Below the pieces are notes generated by a model. It saw only the letters and a list, made by a program, of their open reading frames with translations, was not told the origin of the DNA and did not search any database. DNA of 64,000 bases from Nemopilema nomurai (lineage: Eukaryota; Cnidaria; Scyphozoa; Rhizostomeae; Rhizostomatidae): contig ML133436.1 in NCBI GenBank assembly GCA_003864495.1, forward strand, positions 434,001 through 498,000. The letters are read 5' to 3'. Of this stretch, positions 9,801 to 47,064 are shown one piece after another; the stretch's first letter is position 1, and every line of letters starts with the position of its first letter. Made by a program: the position numbers and the translations under genes.

Positions 9801-12800
9801 AACAAGCAGAGATTTAACAATGTAAGTTGGGAAATTCCACATTTTTGTTTTATATAGTTTGAACTTATTTTGTTTTATATTGAACTAAGATTAGACATAT
9901 ACACTCTGTTGACAAGTTTTTGAAGTAGACTTAAAATTTGTTGCATTCTAGGCAAAGCTGAAGAGAGAAAGAGAGAAGCAGCAGAGAAAGGAGGCTATCA
10001 TGATGGGCCAGGCACAGACGAAGGGCAAGATGAAAGGGAAATTCCAGAGACATTGGACCAGAAACAGATACAACGATCGACAGGTAAGCGAACAGTAGAC
10101 CCTATGGTATACAGAGGCAGCTGTACGCCTTGTCAAGCTGCAAGTTAGTGGATGGAAATGGACCCATTACACGATATTTTGTAGTCATGTCAGGAAATGG
10201 TTAGCTTACATAAACGGTAAATTGTATAACCATGATAAGTTTGACGATATCTTCAGAATGTCTGAAAAAAATTTCTTTTATAAAATGAGGAACCGATGTT
10301 TGTACATGTCTGTAAGCAACGTGTAGTTGGCTCTAAAATCTAGACAATCAGATAATAGATAGATAGGACAAGAATAAATCTTTTGAATGCGATATTGGTG
10401 TCAAATTATTGAGAGATTCTTAGGTAATTTTGCCGCGGCTTAGTCATAACTAGATGCAGGTAGACAAATCAGAATAGATAAGTCAGCCGTGTGACTGATG
10501 AAAACATAGAGAAATTTAATCTATAATCATCCTACGTTCTGCTACGCAATATTTCGGAGAGACATACAGCGACTGTCTGTCATGCAAGGCGTTCACAAAT
10601 TGCTTAACGAATTATGTTTTATCTTGTTATGTTCTAGAACAACCAAAAACAAAGAAATGCATCAGTTGCTATAAGAGAAGACTGGAAAGTTCTCGAGGAC
10701 ATGGACTTTCCCAGGCTGGCGAAGCTGAAGCTGCCTGATGTCTCAGACCCTGTTGACCTGTGAGTTTCCCAGACAATGTGCATTGTGTGCGCTATTTGGC
10801 ATTGAATTGCCAGAGACAAACAGAACGTGGCGAAAGCAGGGTTTTTCTAGTCAAAGTTTCATTTCTCGGAAGTTTTTTTGTTATTGTGTTGGGTATAAGC
10901 TCGTGATAACATAGAGGTTACTTACTAGAATTGAGTCATTCAAAAGTCTGGAAATCCCCCCAATATTGTTCCGCACCAGTATTTTGAATTTTTGGGCTGA
11001 CCCGTTGATTTTGCTCTAGAGAGGGAAATAGATCTGTTTTAGTGATGATCGATCAAATTGCTAATTAATATACTAATAAAGAGAGCATCCCTATTTATTT
11101 TTACTGATGAAGGGGATTGAGAAAGTGAGATTTCCCTTCTTAGGTGTTGCAATTAATTTTGTGGCCATTGCATTCTGCGTAAACAAAAATTTTCTCGTTT
11201 CGTCAAATTCTGAACTTTTTAACGGATATTTTTTGTTGGGTTGACGCTATGCAGCAAGCAAACTTTTGATCAAGTTGAAGCAATCAGAGTGCAAGATTCA
11301 TGTTTATCAGCTACTGCTTGAATGACCAAACGTCAGGATTTCCTACCAAAACAAATGACTATATATCGCATTTTCTAAGCGCAAGCATATTTTAAGCGAT
11401 GACATATTCAAAACAGCTTCTAGGTCTTTTTTGATCATGCATTTTGTTTTTCCAGGTACAACGCGGGAACTGTTGAATATTACGACAAGTCGTTCGACAG
11501 GATTACAACACGCAATGAAATTCCATTAGAAGTGAACAATAAAATATTTCACAAGGTCACCACGACGGATGACCCTGTCATAAGAAAGGTGGGTTGTAAT
11601 TAACACACTTTATTCACAGAAAACTTTGATTTGTCCAGTGAAATGGCGAATGGGACTCCATTCTATGATGATACCACGTCTTCCTCCATAATAATGTTTT
11701 GAGTCTTACAGAAGCGAGCTGCATAGCAAGTCAAACTTGTAGACAAAAAATAGCATTGGGAAGTTGTCCGCCCTGTGTTTCGAATTTGAGCCATAAAATG
11801 TTAAGTTGGGGCAGGATAGCTTAGTTAAGAGAGACTAATGAGTGCATGAATTTATTTTGGTCCTCCAAAATGTCACTTTTACACTTTACTCGGGAGGGTG
11901 TTGATGTTGTACCGCTCTCTATTTCCTCTGTGGAAGTGGTAGAAGAATAGACATGTTTAACACCACTTCGTTTCTATTTCCACAGCTGGCAAGTAAAGGG
12001 AATGTTTTTGGAACAGATACCATTATTAGTACTTTGATGACGTGTACTAGGTCTGTAAATCCATGGGACATCATTGTGCAGGTGAGATTGGTCATCATTG
12101 TCATTATTGGTTCACTATTGTCATTATTGGATCATCATTGTCATTCTTCGGTCATTATTGTCATTCCCCGGTCATCATTGTCATTCTTCAGTCATCATTG
12201 TAATTATTCTGTCATTATTGTTATCCTTCGGTCATCATTGACATTCTTCGGGCATTGTTGTCATTCTTCGGTCATTATTGTCATTCTTCGGTCATCATTG
12301 TCATTATTGGGTCATCATTGTCATTCTTCGGTCAAATAGTTGCGATGGCCTTGCGGAAATCTATTTATTTGTTAGCATAATTTCCGTATTTGGCCAAGGT
12401 TGACTTCTGCCGTTTATACTATATATTACGAGTTTAGTTGTTATTGTATAAATAACATGAACGTTTCTCATTTTATTTTCAGAGAGTTGGAAATAAGTTG
12501 TTCTTTGACAAGAGAGATGACTCAGAATTTGGTAAGTATAGGCATCTTCATGAAGTAGATCGAACTTAAAGAAACATCTGCTTTAGATAAGAAGCATACC
12601 GTGAAGGCTCCTCCGTAGAGCCAAGTGCAGCTACTCCATGGTTTTCAGTAACGCATTTCTTCCTTAACAATGCGGATTTTCTCGCTGTCTTACCTGAAAT
12701 TCAATCAAGATTTGTTACAACAACCTTTCAAAAAGTGCTCCATGCAGCAGAGCTGTTTGTGGTATCTAGAACGCGGCAGCATCTGCTTGGCACGCATATT

Positions 12801-15800: not shown

Positions 15801-18800
15801 AAATAGGGTGATTTATAAAAAGGTAATAAGTATAGTTCATTGGTTACTGGTCTACCGATTTCTTATGCGAATCCCTAAAATATCGTTGGTTAATGGTAAG
15901 TGAAGGCCACGTAAGCTTATGGTATGATCTGTCCGCCACTGCCACACATAATGACCTGGGTTGTTTCTAAACCTCATTGCAAAACGGTCAAAAATACGAT
16001 TTTCAGATATTGAATTTTTTTTGCTGGACACTTTCAGGACATGCAGTTCTTGTTCCGCTTTCTTTTGACATGGACTATTCAAAGTTTCCAGATACGGCAC
16101 TGATATTTGTCAATTTGTTTCTAATTCAGAATAGTGAGTTTTAATTTTCTGATTATGTTTATTTTTTAGATACCGTAAGTTTGATCTTGGCGATGGCATC
16201 AACTTAGTTGTTCGCTGTGAACACGATTCTGTGTTGCAAGGGCCTTCTGGCGAGAATCTCTTCATGAATGTCAAAACCCTCAACGAGTGGGACTCGAAGG
16301 TAAAACCTAGTCTGGTTGTAGATGCGTGCGTTCACTCTTGGTCCTTGTATACTTTTTCAGTTTTATATATTTGTTTGTATACTTTTTTAATTTTTTGTAT
16401 TTTTGCATTTAGGCCAGTGGTATTGCTTGGAGGGCAAAGCTTGATTCCCAAGGAGGCTCTGTATTGGCTACAGAGCTGAAAAACAACAGTTGCAAACTGG
16501 CAAAGTGGACATGCTCCGCGGTATTAGCTGGTTCCGAATACCTCAAAATAGGGTGAGCTTGAATTGCTTTGGATTTTGCTGGCAATGTAAATATTCTGAC
16601 CTGAAAATCACGTTCGTAAATCGGAATGATTCGTGCTGGTAGCTAGGGGTTTCAGGGGTTATTGGCTCTGAGTAGCGCGTTTGTATTTTGCCAGAAAAAT
16701 GACCTGTCAAGAGATGCTTCCTTATTGCAAAACATTTAAACACAATGTCTCTGTATTATTATTAAATTTATAGTCCCTTTCGTCAGCGCCAAACTATGAC
16801 GATGGCTGGCTGATTTATGTCTCTGTCTTTGAAAAGTACTGCTTTTGAACAGCACGAAAAAAATGTTTGGCGCTTTCAATTCATTTTACTATCCTCTGCT
16901 CACGATATTACATCGCCGTTCCTAGATATGTTTCAAGAATAACAGCCGTAGATTCCTCCAAGCATGTTATTCTGGGCACACAGCAGTTGAAGCCGAAGGA
17001 GTTCGCTGATCAAATTGCGCTGAATATGGACAACGGATGGGGCATTCTCCGCGTCATTATTGACACCTGCATGAAGTTGCCAGAAGGGAAGTACTTAATT
17101 CTAAGAGACCCCAACAAGGTGAGAATGGTCTTGATAATCTTTTTACAGTTTCTTTCAAAAACGCTTAGTTGAATCAGATAGATTTTCAATGGCTGTGAAA
17201 TGTTGGAGGATAAGCATAGAAGGTTAATACAGTCAAATTGGCTATTTGTCAAAGGGATATGATTCATGGGAGTGTTTTTGTAGTAGGCGGTGAAGTAGGT
17301 AGCTTAACGTGTCTGGGTCCTCTTTCCTAATGCTGTTACGCGACAATAGAATGGAGCAGAACGTTGTTGTGCTGTGAACAATAATACTTAAATCAACTGA
17401 CCAGTTCCTAATAAAACTCTACCAGGCCAAGCAATAGAATAGCAAGGATTATCGTGTCATGATATCACGATCCAGTAATCTTGTTAAGTTCATGAGAGTT
17501 TCTTCTACTTGTGTTATGTCATGGTTGATCTTTCGTTGAGGACAGCTTTAATCTTGCTTCGAATGAGCGGATTTTGTCTTTGGTTGTAGTCGTGTTCAAG
17601 GAAGTATGATTGGGCGAATCTCCTTCGTTCGTTTCTACTAAACGAGTTATTAATAATGTCGTTAGTATAATTACATAACTGAATTTTCCAATCTTTGTTA
17701 TGTTTATGACGTCAAACGGACGTTTACATGGTACTTCTCAGGCCTCGACCCACTGCGATAATTTTTTTCTTAATTCATCACATTTTCAATGTATAGCTTC
17801 GGCCGAAAGAATTCCTTGCTAGGTGACTCATTCACAGAGGTTTCCTAACCTCCAAATCGCTCTAACCTGCAGATGCTTTCTTCCTGACGCTATTTGTGAA
17901 GGAGGATATCTCACAGCTCGTTATCATGATTTCATTAGCTGAAATTGGTTTTCTCCTTTTTGACTAACCCTCTTACATCCTAATCGATCAAGCCTAATCA
18001 ATCAAAGTTAATCAATTAAACTTCATCCAAAGATTGGACTACACTACTGCGGCATTGAATACACTATGCGCATAACCCTTCTAAGAAAACAATAAAAGGT
18101 TTTTCTATCGATAGCTTGGCAAATCTGTCTTTCTGTCTTAGCAAATCACCAGTTACAGTTTCAGCGTATCTAACTTTGCATTCTAACAATTCTTTCAAAC
18201 AATTCCTGTACTAATTGTTCATATGACAAATTGGCTTTGTCCCTACTTACTTTTTACACTGTACGTCTAATAAATATTACTTTTTACAGTGTTTGTTTAG
18301 AAAAATGCGTAAATTTATTTATACTTTACTTTCTGAGCAAAATCAGTTCTTATAGCTTTTTACATCATCATGGCAATGACCACTGCAATGACTTTGTTTG
18401 AGTGTTCACAAATACCGGATTTTGCACTCTTCTGCAAACAGCATTTCGTCTGCGAAATAGTCTTCTCAATCAGCTTTCCTGCCCACTTTGTGTATTATTC
18501 TTTAGGAAGTCAAGGCAACCCTCCTTTATAATCCGTGTGCTTGTTTTGCCGACCTTCTCTTCGAACTCTATAACATTCTGTTCGAATACTGAGAATTTGT
18601 ATGGGTGTAAGAAGGATATGTTGTAGCTATACTTGTTCCAGGCTCGTTTCGTCCTGTACTTCCACGTGGCTCCCCAGCCGTATACTCTTTGCAAGTACAT
18701 CCCCTCGAGTGTGTGTATGTTTGACTTCGAGTCTAGGAAATACAAGGACATGGGCACCGCGACCTCTAGGAACAACCGGTTGTCATAGTAGTACTGTGCA

Positions 18801-21800
18801 ATCTTGGCAAAGCGCTCGGCGTATGCCCCGGGAACGTAGAATATATCTGACAATGCGGCAAGGCATACCCTTTTCCGTCTCGTGTTCTCAAGGAATGTAT
18901 CGAACATGCCTGTGGTATTGAATGCTGGGTCATTTTCCATTGCTTCGTAAAGTCTTTCGCAAAGCTGCCCCCTCCCATACCTTGAGAACCAGGGGTCTGG
19001 GACGGAGCCCATAACATGGCCGTCGTCAAAGTTTATCGCTTCGCCAAACCAAATCTTGTCTTTGTCCAGTTGCAGAAAGTTCCACCAGTTGACAATCATG
19101 TCATCATTGACAAGGAGGTAGCCACGGAAACCCGGGTTTCTCTTTATTCCCTCGACAAGGCACTGATAACCGTAGAAGCCGTACTCTTGTTTCGCTTGCT
19201 CGATCTTGATGACGTCAATGTCTCCTTCAGAGTGCCCCTCCGGGCCGCAGAAGCCAATGTTGGGAAACACTGACTTGAAGTATTGCTGGAGAATTTTGAT
19301 GTTAGAGTAGAAGGGGTGGTTAAAGTTGATAGACAGGAAGATGTCTGCAAATACGCCTAATGCTGTGTTCTGCACTGGGTGCTTACAGTGGGCTCCAGAG
19401 AGATTGTGGACTTTCTTGATTCTGGGTTGAGTGTTTGACGGGATCTTCTTTATTGGTACTGAAAGGAAGAAAACAGTCGTCAATCATTGAAATAACGCCT
19501 TTCCCTTTAACTTGGTGAAATTTTCAGCGACGTTAAGCATTGGGTATGCTCAGAATTATGCTCGCTTAATTTCCTGATCAAAGCTAAACAACCCGCCCGA
19601 GGCTAGTTGCCAGGTTACAAACGCGCGTGATTTCAATTGGGTCCTTCCTGAAATGTCTAGATCAGTTAAGGCAGATTTCATGTAAAGTCCCTTTGCTCCA
19701 CGTTGTTGATATTGGCCTATTAGGGCCTATTTTTTCTCCTTTCTTATTGTGGCGTTATTTTGGTGCAGCTTGAGTGTGGGGACTGCCTTTGACCAATCGT
19801 GCAAATTTGAGGGTGATTTCCCCTTGATTATCTATTGCTTGACCATTGTATCTTTTATCCGGTCAATGAATGTTCATCCATGAGGATATATGCATGCATG
19901 AATGCATGGCATATTCCCAAGCTACTTGGAAGTACTCAATGTTTGCGTTAACTTCTTCGCAGAATACGCCCTGTTAGTTAGTTAGATACCCATTTCTGTG
20001 CGGTAGTGCGATATTTAGAAGGAAAAATAAATATCAAGGTCAAAGAGTTCCTTTTTAGAGCTCGAAGCGTCTTCTACATTTAGCTTACAGAAAGAGTATT
20101 GTCATCAATGCACACCTCAGAAGTTTTTTCGCACGGATGAAATCGACCCGCTTTCCGAAATGAAGCTCTCGCATAATATGCCTTGATGTGAATTTCAAGA
20201 CTGTCTTGATGGGAAAGTTGGATGATGTTAAAATTATTCATCTCATAATTTCTATTGTTGTACCATATTTTTGTTCGAGACATATTTTTGTTCGAGACCC
20301 AGTTTGCCTTAAGCTTTCTGCCGGGTCAATGTCATCAACTGTTTTATTCACAAGTTGGCTTTCAATCTCAAAGGCATGCAAGACGGTAATTCTTGTCCTT
20401 CCCCTGTCGTACCTGTGATGTTCTTATTCATAAGATAAGTCTCGAACAAAGGCAGGTTTTCGAACCAAAGATCAGCAGGTTGCTGCGTATGGCAAAGCAT
20501 TTCTCACTAAAGCTACTTCTTTTCACCACCAATTCAATTCCTAAACCCGACCACAGCTCTCTGCCAAAAATCTTGGAATGCTCTAATGATTTTGTGTACT
20601 CCCCTTTCTCTGTGACGCAATGTTGTAATGCGTAATTGAAAGCTAGCTGACCGGAAAACACGTACCTGTGACAAAAAGAAGTAGAACAGCGTTGGCAAAA
20701 AGGAAGAAGCAGATGTACCAAGCACGATCTCTCATCGTTAGCTCCAGCTAATAAAAGCTGCCATAAAACAGTTGCAAGGTGTGCCTTGACAAAAACTGTA
20801 ACCACACTGCTGGAATCTTTCTGTGAATGTAGAATTGTTTACCTATATACCCGCCTGAAGTACAATTTAAGTGGTTCGTTGATTCGCCTGTTTCTGCCTA
20901 TCATGATCTACGGGTTACCATTGCATGTGGCCGGTACAGCCTTGCATTGACGGAATTTCTTCACGTACATTGTTTTGCTTCGTAGGGCACATGTTGATTT
21001 GCATTTCAATTGTTTGTGCCACGTGCCACGTGTTTCGAATTAACATCATTGCCAAAATAATGTATTTTATTTGCAGGTTACTGCTTGTATACTGAAAATG
21101 TGACAATTGCTTCGTTACTTTTTGTTCCGGAAGCTGATCTTGCTGGTCAGAAAGTATGATTTTGTTCCTTGGGTGAATTATTTTTCAATTAATGTGTTAA
21201 AACTTCTGTTTTCATAGGGTGTAATCCTTCTCTACGACATTCCCGATAACACCTTCGAAAGTGAAGAAGATTCAAGCGAGGAAGAATCAGAAAATGAGGG
21301 AGAAGGTGACCAGAATTCCTTACAGTTTGATTTCGTCATATTTGCTCTGCAGCCTCTGTTTCGTGCTATGTCTTATTATGACCTGAAAGAGAGTCTCGTG
21401 CAACAAGGCACTTGCACATTTCTGGTTCAAGTGTTATTGTTTTATCTTCTTGGAGGGCGTGGATGGCGTTCAAAAAGTTTCGTCCCGTGTCATTCCTGCA
21501 TTCGTATCTTCCTGAAACCAATCGTGCATGACTTTCTGTTTCGAACTAGTTAGTTCTGCATTAACATAATTAACTGCAGTCACGTGCAGCTGGTGGTAGG
21601 GTGGTTGTTGTTGTTCAACAATCAGTGCTAGAATTACTTGGAACAGTGCCATTAGCAATGGAGTTGTTCCCATTTCATTCCTAGATATTTAGATTCAGCA
21701 TAACAAGTTTGGGACCATCAATAGTCTCGCATCCTCACGTGCTTCGTCCTTCTTTGCTTTAGCGTTTGCCGTGGCAGCTAAGCGATTTAATCTTCTCTTC

Positions 21801-43776: not shown

Positions 43777-45317
43777 CTATTTCTGATTCATGAAATTCAT
43801 GCAAACACCAACCAGAACTGCGATAGCAATGGCCAGTGCGGCCAACGCTTTGAGCCAATCAAAACTAGAAGCTTTGATCACGTGGCTCGGAGGGTCGACC
43901 TTTTGTTTGCGCTCCTGTGCAGTATTTTGGCTAGGTGCTTCATGCGGCACTGTTTCGACATCTTCGTGAACAATCTCTTCTTCGAAGCCGGCAAGCTTGT
44001 CTAGTTCTTTGAACAAATTGATATTCAGGACAAAAGACACCTTCGCCTCTTCCACCAAAATGTCCGCTGTTTCTTGGTCAACCCTTAGGCCATCCAATTT
44101 CAGTCGGTAGCTGTTCTTGAATTCCACGTGATCTTCAATATTCTCGAACTCATAGAAACGAACGCCATCGCCATTTTCTGGCAACTCGTATGCTTTCACT
44201 GCCATTTTCTTAAGGATTTGTCCGCCAGAAAGATCACCAAGATACCTTTTAAACAGAAAAATAAACAAATTTCAAAGCAAACTTTAATTTAAAGCTGCTA
44301 TTATCAATTCTGGAACAAGTTCCATTTTCCCAGCGCAATGCAGAAGATCAAGTAATTTGTATTATGTTTCTTCATTTAATGCAGAAAATATCAATGAGTC
44401 GGCGTATCCAAGTGCTTCTTCACTGTAAGACACAGCCTAACCGGGCTTATTAAAGCTATGTTCCCATTACATGAAAGCGGATGATAATGTTTTGGGCTTT
44501 GCCTTTCCATTAACACGCATGAAAACGGGTGACATTTGAAAATGCTGTTGAAGGCGGAGTGATTAGAAAGAGCAGACATTTGAAAACGGAGTAATGGTAA
44601 CCTGGCCTAAAATTCACATTATTACTCATAATCCTGAAATATATGTAGAGTTGTCCTGACAAAATTTTTGCATAACCACAAGTGATGATGATGACTTCCA
44701 TGCCTCCCGTAGTGATTGGCATCATAATCATCATCACCATCATTATAATCATCATTATCATAATCATCAAAATCAGCATCAGCACCATCATCATCATAAT
44801 CAAAACAATCATTCTAGGCCAATCAACCAACCTTGTGTAGTGATGTGAGATGAGCAGTACAGGATCTCGCTTTGCAACAGCGTGAATGTGATCAATGTAT
44901 TTCTGGGCAGCATCCGAGACTTGAATCTCATCCTCCCAGTCGTCGCCATAATAAAACTGAAGATCTTTTTTAAGTGATTCAACTCTTGATAGCTCTCTTG
45001 GAAAGTGAATGTTTTTGAACACTGGATGATCACAGTTTTTGTCCGACTCCTCTTCCAATGCACTGAAAAATTAAAACAGAATATAGCGGTTTTCCAAAAA
45101 GTGTTGTCAACTACCCTTTTAAAAAGAACACCCTTTCGTCTTAACCGAATCAAAGCAACTAAACCCAGTGCCTTTTTTCCTAAAACCACTTTCTTTCAAA
45201 TCACATCAGTACCATCTCAAACCTCTCATCAACATCATCATCATCATCATTATCATCATCACCAATAACATCATCATCATCATCACCAATATCATAATCA
45301 TCATCATCATCATCATT

Positions 45318-45354
<37 letters not shown>

Positions 45355-45497
45355 CCAATATCATCACCAATATCATCACCAATATCATCACCAATATGAT
45401 CACCAATATCATCATCATCATCATCACCAATATCATCATCATCGTCATCATCATAATCATCATCACCAATATCATCATCATCATTATCATCACCAAT

Positions 45498-45543
<46 letters not shown>

Positions 45544-47064
45544 ATTTCATCATCATCATTATCATTACCAATATCATCATGATCATCATCACCAATATCA
45601 TCATCATCATCATCACCAATATCATCATCATCATCATCATCATCATTATCATCACCATCACAACCATCATCATCACCATCATTGTCATCATCATCAACGC
45701 TGGCACTCACTTATTCATGGGCTACCAAACAAAGATCTGGTATAGAGGTCTTCAAATGAAACAAACACCGACTGAACAATGTACCTGTATATGAAGTATA
45801 AAGCAGCCACTGCCTCTCTGTATATTTTTTGCTCCACCCTGCCTTTAATAAACTCCTTGACAAAGTGCACTTTTTCTGCTTGCCTATGTACCTTCATTGT
45901 CCCTTTCTTCAACTGATCTGCAAGCTTTGCAGCTTGATTCTCAATTTCGTCTTCCATGGCATCCACTTTTGTTGTGCTGGTTGTGGCACTACCAGTTTTT
46001 AAATCATTCTCCATTTCCTCTTTCACCTAGAAAACATGTAACAATTATTGACTAAACCTGATTTATGACACTGGAATCTTTAATAGATTTCATTCCCATA
46101 TAATGTGCCAGTGTAACACACACGTATATCTACACAGTTTAAAGGGATGCAAATACCTTAAACAATGACTAAATTTTATTATGGATAAGAATGTATACAA
46201 AAAACCATGTGAACAGATAGTGTCACTATAAAAAATTAAAAAACCTAATAATATATTGCATATCTGTGACTTTTATCCCATGTTAGATAAAATCATTATA
46301 CACTTGTTGGGGTTGGCATTTATTGCATTTATGCTATCTAGAATATATTTGTTAATATGACTTTCGTAACTATATGGATATGGCCCTTTGATCGTACAAG
46401 CCTGTAATATTTTCAGATTTAATAAGACTCTTGTACTAGCTTATGATAATTCATGATAAATGCTACACACTCCTATTGAACAGGCTGGTCAGCCATAAAA
46501 TATAAACAATCTTGAAATTTGGCAATTAAAATCTAACATCAACATAGCTGTCCCATCGCATCAAAAGTTTTGATTGCTGCTTACTATAACCCTAGAAAGT
46601 TCTTGAAATAATCAACTCACCTCAATCACAGATCTATTAATAACAGAATCTGTCTTTAGCATATCCAGATTGTGTACCAAGGGTTTTCCACTTGAGGTTA
46701 GAGTCTTGAACGGGCAGCCTTGTTTGGAGGAGAAAGCTGGACACTCTCCAATATTTCCCTTCAGGTCGCTTGAAACAGAGTGAATTAACTTCAACAGCTG
46801 AGTCATTGCTTTCTGATGGTGAGACCCTTCAGAAACATCAGGCATTTTTGACAATTTCTCATAGACATCTTGAATAGTAACAGCATTTTCAAAAGTGCAC
46901 CCATTCTTGAAGGCAGGACACTCCTTTGCCTGTTCCTTCAATTCTTTGGCTTCAGCAGTATCAAAAGGACATTTTTCCTTGAATGCTGGGCACTTCTCTT
47001 TCAAATCTGTCACATCAGTAGCTACGTTTTCCTGAACACTAGATGATCCAGCTTCTGCTTCCAT
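43777..47064 (-). CDS. HMOX1: heme oxygenase with N-terminal Cys-Pro motif extension and C-terminal membrane anchor
   Basis: Heme oxygenase cleaves heme to biliverdin, CO and iron at the ER surface, using electrons from cytochrome P450 reductase. Four coding exons join in phase: 46621-47064, 45785-46026, 44832-45062 and 43777-44245 (461 aa, against about 290-315 in vertebrates). The catalytic domain starts near residue 185: KVHRQAEK carries the proximal heme-ligand His (residue 195), ALYFIYSALEEE follows, and RYLGDLSGGQILKK (306-319) is the distal-helix signature. The C-terminus has a hydrophobic tail anchor at about 437-458. Residues 1-148, all encoded by the first coding exon, are unusual: they hold three paired motifs, CPAFKEKCPF (25-34), CPAFKNGCTF (49-58) and CPAFSSKQGCPF (108-119), resembling heme regulatory motifs. 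The ATG lies 4 bases inside an acceptor-bounded exon, so a noncoding exon precedes it. The vertebrate HMOX1/HMOX2 split does not apply here, so the symbol is by family. Confidence 0.95.
44690..44810. repeat. imperfect CAT/ATC triplet tract
   Basis: CATCATAATCATCATCACC-like sequence in the HMOX intron between exons 43777-44245 and 44832-45062, ending about 20 bases from the donor of the latter. Noncoding. Confidence 0.8.
45225..45706. repeat. CAT triplet microsatellite with regular CACCAATAT interruptions
   Basis: About 480 bases of (CAT)n broken many times by CACCAATAT, TTATCAT and CATAAT blocks. It sits in the HMOX intron between exons 44832-45062 and 45785-46026, within about 80 bases of the latter. 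Translations of Asp, Met or Ile runs across it are artefacts of the triplet. Confidence 0.97.

Follow-up and report, generated by a model that had tools for sequence, protein, structure and literature searches.

A conserved N-terminal module of paired Cys-Pro motifs fused to a heme oxygenase of the scyphozoan Nemopilema nomurai

Introduction

Vertebrate heme oxygenase 2 (HO-2) is tail-anchored. Paired Cys-Pro (CP) motifs are present at the N-terminus of mitochondrial cytochrome c heme lyase. In cells, HO-2 acts as a buffer of labile ferric heme (PMC8808069). Its heme regulatory motifs (HRMs) take up a second heme, which may be passed on to the active site; their cysteines form a redox-dependent disulfide, and the heme-bound motifs lower activity in vitro (PMC11900463). 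The CP motifs of heme-binding proteins are described as lying mostly in helix-joining loops, with predominantly five-coordinate heme (PMC10377097).

It is an open question by which route labile heme reaches heme oxygenase (HO), and another why HO-2 has heme-binding motifs away from its active site. Both are touched by a gene of Nemopilema nomurai located in a 64,000-nucleotide stretch of contig ML133436.1, hereafter called the window. This gene encodes an HO with three Cys pairs in an N-terminal module. A search of titles and abstract openings, covering few subscription journals and preprints, returned no published description of this module.

Gene structure and heme oxygenase identity

The translation of the window shows a single open exon of 148 codons without a stop on the minus strand (47064-46621). 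It ends in GAG followed by gtgagt, in phase 0, and ttttctag precedes exon 2 (46026-45785). Four exons join in phase, all with GT/AG borders, to give a protein of 461 aa (Table 1). As the ATG is found 4 nt past an acceptor-like ttcttatttctag, a 5' UTR intron upstream of exon 1 is likely. Residues 1-148 contain six Cys, five of which are followed by Pro and one by Thr (C25P..C32P, C49P..C56T, C108P..C117P). The first-pass annotation had reported a 148-residue N-terminal region with paired CP motifs, five Cys-Pro and one Cys-Thr, and the translation of 47064-46621 bears out both the motifs and the count. The paired spacing that it described is also present in the form of three Cys pairs, except that the third is Cx8C and not Cx6C. 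Chance is excluded as the origin of these pairs: none of 200,000 shuffles of the 148 residues reached five CP or more, 111 of 200,000 gave three separate Cx6-8C pairs, and a degenerate DNA pattern for a CP pair, with at most two mismatches, occurs twice in the window against 0.02 expected.

Table 1. Features of the heme oxygenase gene (positions in the window)
Feature	Residues	Position	Strand	Remarks
Exon 1	1-148	46621..47064	-	N-terminal three-pair Cys module, conserved core 20-139
Pair A	25-34	46963..46992	-	CPAFKEKCPF, Cx6C
Pair B	49-58	46891..46920	-	CPAFKNGCTF, Cx6C, Thr in place of second Pro
H95	95	46780..46782	-	Candidate heme or metal ligand, or structural
Pair C	108-119	46708..46743	-	CPAFSSKQGCPF, Cx8C
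Exon 2		45785..46026	-	Acidic linker (residues ~149-180) and start of HO catalytic domain
His195	195	45886..45888	-	KVHRQAE, counterpart of the HO proximal heme-ligand His
Exon 3		44832..45062	-	Catalytic domain
Exon 4		43777..44245	-	Catalytic domain end (GDLSGGQ at 309), CP-free linker, C-terminal anchor, stop
Hydrophobic C-terminal segment	~436-458	43789..43857	-	Predicted tail anchor, by eye

Judged by its sequence, the gene encodes a complete HO with a predicted tail anchor. Residues 182-386 match PF01126 with 248.9 bits (cut-off 23; profile positions 2-204 of 204), and the best PDB match is HO-2 2q32 (E 2.5e-69, residues 167-391), to which HRQAE at 195 and the distal-helix GDLSGGQ are aligned. 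His195 presumably has the ligand role of its counterparts in HO-1 and HO-2. A C-terminal helix is also present in the model of a relative, P0058. After the module, the only Cys residues are C239 and C454 (VCMNF), and there is no CP past C117; with a CP-free tail, the N-terminal module is the sole Cys-Pro equipment of this gene. The feature that defines the HO-2 subtype, a C-terminal Cys-Pro HRM between catalytic domain and anchor, is absent from the window HO.

In the organism's own genome (212.9 Mb, 226 contigs), PF01126 matches just the three catalytic exons of this gene. Queries with P0001 (the window protein), P0011, P0014, P0051 or PF01126 yielded no second HO or module gene there, counts from these searches being lower bounds. 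One candidate for a second module (L006, E 0.21, chance level) was discarded by eye, its translation being that of an unrelated enzyme-like ORF.

Several other features of the window were recorded. The HO intron between exons 2 and 3 harbours about 470 bases of an ATG/GAT-type microsatellite (45226-45696; period 12, 39 copies), whose long ORFs of poly-Asp, poly-Met, poly-Ile and poly-His carry no meaning. For MARE/ARE-like sites, the window holds one match with two mismatches against 1.3 expected, which is nothing notable. At 11905-12336 (plus strand), a 31-residue match to translation initiation factor eIF-3 zeta (E 3.1e-10) is probably one exon of that gene. A 337-aa open frame at 18473-19483 (minus strand) has a weak match to STELLO glycosyltransferase, at 20.5 bits below the cut-off of 27.8.

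The splice junction between module and enzyme is predicted from genomic DNA, and a gene-model artefact, the exon being part of another transcript or not translated with HO, has to be considered. We regard it as extremely improbable, given the phase-compatible GT/AG borders and the proteins with the same organization. P0013 has 442 aa, a 69% identical module and a contig of 2,123 bases; P0058 has 452 aa, its longest contig measuring 2,369 bases. Both encode module, HO and anchor in one open frame, and as their contigs are transcript-sized (2.1-2.4 kb), they support the splicing of exon 1 to exon 2. Furthermore, the coral-type ORFs P0002-P0005 (contigs of 0.74-1.4 Mb, closest to the named coral protein P0008) pass from three modules directly to the HO domain and stop just past the counterpart of the window exon 2 donor; they would represent unspliced reads of one exon. 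That an N-terminal module is fused to HO, as first proposed, is therefore upheld by the in-phase exons and by homologues with the same domain order.

Distribution of the module

Residues 1-148 used as a query returned 16 proteins at E <= 1 among 121 candidates, PF01126 being present in 10 of them. The protist-type P0017 (residues 1-150) gave 38 proteins, including itself, among 428 candidates. They include P0041 of Prorocentrum cordatum, LOC116294377 of Actinia tenebrosa (P0051), which has no HO, and an HO of Balamuthia mandrillaris with partial modules (P0052). We built a module HMM from 34 rows, including P0001. It matches 73 of the 170 proteins compared, P0001 included, and the weakest best domain has an E-value of 1.5e-8. 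The window module itself matches at E 1.6e-42, as one of the training rows, and relatives were also found independently of the HMM by the two single-sequence searches. The window module shows the marks of the family, which are three Cx6-9C pairs formed by its six Cys, the CPxF and GCxF motifs and the HMM match. In each of the 97 proteins without an HMM match, the first 150 residues contain at most one CP.

The module is present in 23 of the best 120 of 792 HO matches, which are ranked by likeness to the window HO and as such provide neither a sample nor a frequency; animal phyla other than those named here are hardly represented among them. The carriers include Actinia P0070, Actinostola P0071 and Basidiobolus ranarum P0053, with a partial module and three tandem HO domains. 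No named vertebrate HO with a module occurs among those best 120 of 792. Coral and anemone HOs have up to three tandem modules N-terminal to HO, and the module is also free-standing, in 2 to 5 copies per protein without HO. The module, which the first-pass annotation had envisaged in other cnidarian HOs or on its own, is found in both settings. The cnidarian or invertebrate scope given to it is correct for cnidarians but too narrow, since the module also occurs in dinoflagellate-type proteins, an amoeba, a fungus and protists. The label 'dinoflagellate-type' is based on P0041 and on sequence likeness to it. In a narrow test of prokaryotic or viral origin using one peptide pattern, there were no viral loci, and none of 28 prokaryote stretches was a relative.

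Other architectures were observed among the proteins compared. P0014 (389 aa) and P0015 (577 aa) have no HO domain, at least 12 CPAFxxGCPF-type pairs each, 25 and 24 CP dipeptides, respectively, and many His between the pairs, making them candidate heme or metal stores. The free-standing two-module proteins P0009-P0012, consisting of modules 1 and 2 alone with their own C-terminal tail, resemble the duplicated 5' part of a three-module HO gene. Catalytic domains may also occur in tandem, two or three per chain; three are confirmed in P0053, and those of the shark proteins P0054 and P0055 are deduced from length and score.

Conservation, structure and possible functions of the module

Out of 107 module matches at E < 1e-9, 92 near full length (from 62 proteins) were counted, and 15, including all those of P0052 and P0053, were dropped. 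All six Cys are kept in 89 of the 92, a set that contains the 34 HMM-training rows. The exceptions are P0080, whose N-terminus is missing, P0115, which has lost C49, and P0013, which has lost C117. Pair A follows the Cx6C spacing in 78 of 91 cases and pair B in 90 of 91; in pair C the spacing varies from 6 to 9. H95 is found in 80/80 HO-type modules (eight of them from the free-standing P0009-P0012), as against 0/12 of the P0051 type. C56 is likewise present in 80/80 HO-type modules and is followed by Pro in 62 of these; as the Cys is better kept than its Pro, it is the Cys and not the CP pair that is selected at that site. The consensus reads CPAFxxGCP[FY] - CP[AE]FKxGCPF - helical stretch with LkxxHxxS - CPVFx(2-6)CPFKtxxSxGxPL. 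By its sequence, the window module is a slightly eroded example of its family: pair B reads GCTF, and C32 follows a Lys where Gly is usual.

The AlphaFold2 model of the module, computed from a 34-row alignment, is helical (mean pLDDT 66, pTM 0.47). In a model of full-length P0058, the module is mostly at pLDDT 57-74 and the HO domain mostly above 90. In the middling-confidence module model, all six Cys are found in non-helical stretches between helices, while H95 is inside a helix. No significant fold match was obtained with this model. The window module gave neither a significant PDB sequence match nor a metal-domain match, and no Pfam or NCBIfam family scored above its curated cut-off.

We favour the idea, which we see as evenly poised between right and wrong, that the module might be a cytosolic thiolate heme reservoir or sensor tethered to HO, analogous to the HRMs of HO-2 with no kinship implied. 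The tail anchor would keep the module in the reducing cytosol, where its Cys-Pro thiolates, perhaps with His95, would bind ferric heme reversibly, with at least one heme per module. Through the flexible acidic linker, the module could buffer heme, pass it to the catalytic pocket, or report the heme and redox state. In this picture, the role of the free-standing multi-module proteins would be to buffer heme or metal. In favour of the heme model are the fusion itself and its recurrence in homologues, the conservation of the six Cys and of H95, the Cys-Pro motifs at both ends of most module-HOs, the buffering of ferric heme by HO-2 (PMC8808069) and the predicted location of the Cys between helices, as the loop position is usual for heme-binding CP motifs (PMC10377097). 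The function guessed in the first-pass annotation, heme or redox sensing or heme delivery, is plausible. On the other side, the retention of C56 over its Pro suits a metal or disulfide role as well, and H95 is absent from all 12 P0051-type modules.

The HRM consensus provides a further counterpoint. The HRM_t and HRM_r patterns were taken from PMC3904948, with 'hydrophobic' rendered as a regular expression of our own. With these strict patterns, 0/243 CPs fit in 44 modules, including that of the window. Of the 86 CPs that lie in module-HO tails, 16 and 14 fit the two patterns, compared with 0 and 2 of 74 in the tails of HOs without the module, which are mostly HO-2. Since the patterns thus also miss accepted HRMs in HO-2 tails, the negative result for the module is a weak one. 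By this consensus, the tail of module-HOs, absent in the window HO, looks more HRM-like than the module.

Tail CPs were counted in the 72 module proteins with a domain match below 1e-8, of which 19 lacking a readable HO end were dropped. A CP is present in the tail of 49 of the remaining 53, the exceptions being P0013, P0053, P0058 and P0115. As this is where HO-2 has its HRMs, these enzymes have Cys-Pro clusters at both ends. Among the 97 proteins without the module, 58 have a readable HO end, and 55 of these have a tail CP. A cruder count of the same 97 proteins finds a CP within the last third of 77 and none anywhere in 19, which are mostly fish HO-1-like.

The main rival of the heme model is metal binding. 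Together, the three Cx6-8C pairs would bind zinc or an Fe-S cluster, or take up the Fe(II) from heme cleavage, and the module would be structural or iron-accepting rather than a heme sensor. The retention of the six Cys in nearly all modules, even where Pro is lost, is in keeping with such a role, as is the fact that HO frees iron on site (PMC11900463). Some relatives also have faint similarities to metal-related profiles: P0051 to DUF2284, described as 'predicted metal-binding' (E 1.7e-5; 25.1 bits for a cut-off of 25, though no individual stretch passes), P0047 likewise to DUF2284 (17.8 bits), and P0009 to a 4Fe-4S domain (E 0.0026; 18.4 bits for a cut-off of 26.2). However, the NCBIfam matches of these proteins are far under cut-off, and the window module itself matches no metal domain. 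To our knowledge, three Cys pairs 17 and 52 residues apart, usually with a Pro after each Cys, correspond to no Zn or Fe-S signature, and single Cys have been lost in P0013 and P0115. On the whole, we consider metal binding a possible but doubtful function.

Alternatively, the module might be a thiol/disulfide switch that dispenses with heme, the Cx6C pairs being oxidized under stress and altering HO access or P450 reductase binding. The strict pairing and near-constant spacing of pairs A and B agree with this idea, and so does the redox-dependent disulfide of the HO-2 HRM cysteines (PMC11900463). Nevertheless, a lone partner has been lost in P0013 (pair C) and in P0115 (pair B), and a pure disulfide does not demand a Pro after nearly every Cys. 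We find such a switch distinctly unlikely, more so than metal binding, and we retain the tethered heme reservoir or sensor as the preferred explanation.

History of the module and of the enzyme

In the HO tree (40 rows, midpoint root), the window protein groups with P0013 and P0058 (99/96), adjoining the Desmophyllum and anemone HOs (87/74, not firm). This placement, together with an HO identity of 58-59% to Actinia and Desmophyllum, is the basis on which the sequence analysis assigns the window to cnidarians. The same side also holds vertebrates, Basidiobolus, Balamuthia and P0049. The opposite side (95/96) comprises P0048, the dinoflagellate-type and the P0076-type proteins, so that modules are found on both sides. 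The module tree, with 44 modules, is poorly resolved at depth; Basidiobolus and Balamuthia were left out of it as partial. Most protist modules form one group (94/91), which P0049 joins although its HO does not, and the window-type modules do not join those of corals and anemones. Coral modules 1, 2 and 3 pair with anemone modules 1, 2 and 3 (bootstrap 99-100, 99 and 96%). This pairing by position indicates that the triplication predates the coral-anemone split. The free-standing P0010 holds copies of modules 1 and 2 in this tree.

The simplest reading of these trees is that of an old HO-associated domain, which would have been lost in vertebrates and multiplied in corals and anemones. The proposal that a one-exon module would be easy to shuffle is not borne out by the data: exon 1 opens the coding sequence and has a phase-0 border on just one side, the three modules of P0002-P0005 are read into the catalytic domain in one frame, apparently without the intron, and the module tree points to tandem duplication among corals and anemones. 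Transfer between cnidarians and dinoflagellate symbionts is disfavoured, and no more than that, because the best tree separates the groups (95/96) but a joint cnidarian and dinoflagellate HO clade, with a p-AU of 0.095, is not rejected. For cnidarians with vertebrates, the p-AU is 0.285; the groups for these tests were named after the tree had been seen.

Discussion

Our analysis points to an undescribed accessory domain of a known enzyme, conserved over about 120 residues and built on three Cys pairs. The novelty resides in this accessory domain and in its presence across corals, dinoflagellate-type proteins, an amoeba and a fungus, the enzyme itself being known. A deeply conserved, repeatable domain fused to HO would offer a testable system for tethered heme delivery or sensing, and it may be the vertebrate HO that has the reduced architecture. 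HO is mentioned in papers on coral and anemone stress; if HO matters there, the role of the module matters too.

One may go a step further, very tentatively, and imagine that the ancestral eukaryotic HO was two-ended, with the module, the core, a C-terminal CPF and the anchor. HO-2 would then be a remnant that kept the C-terminal motif, its HRMs would be half of an older heme-acquisition device, and the free-standing repeats, with at least 12 Cys pairs, would form a class of cytosolic heme or iron stores not seen before. We deem this scenario unlikely as a whole, if somewhat less doubtful than metal binding by the module.

Vertebrate HO-2 and the window protein have in common the catalytic family, a tail anchor, which is predicted in the latter, and Cys-Pro-Phe motifs on the same polypeptide. 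In the HO-2 proteins compared, however, one or two CP follow the catalytic domain and no pairs precede it, whereas the window HO carries six N-terminal Cys within a conserved domain, and its C-terminal tail is free of CP. The coral and anemone HOs (Desmophyllum P0008, Actinia P0070, Actinostola P0071) similarly have the module directly before HO, and their HO domains are 56-59% identical to that of the window protein. They differ by having up to three modules and a C-terminal CPFAT, unlike the window HO with its one module and no C-terminal CP. The dinoflagellate-type HOs (P0041 and relatives in P0016-P0046, not P0033) also have one like-patterned module before HO, but most of them bear additional CPF and CPWPF motifs in their tails, and they belong to separate clades in both the module and HO trees. 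Finally, the free-standing proteins (P0051; P0047 and P0050; the coral-type P0009-P0012; the pair repeats P0014 and P0015) share the Cys-pair units, in repeated form, but have no HO domain, and their P0051-type modules are without H95.
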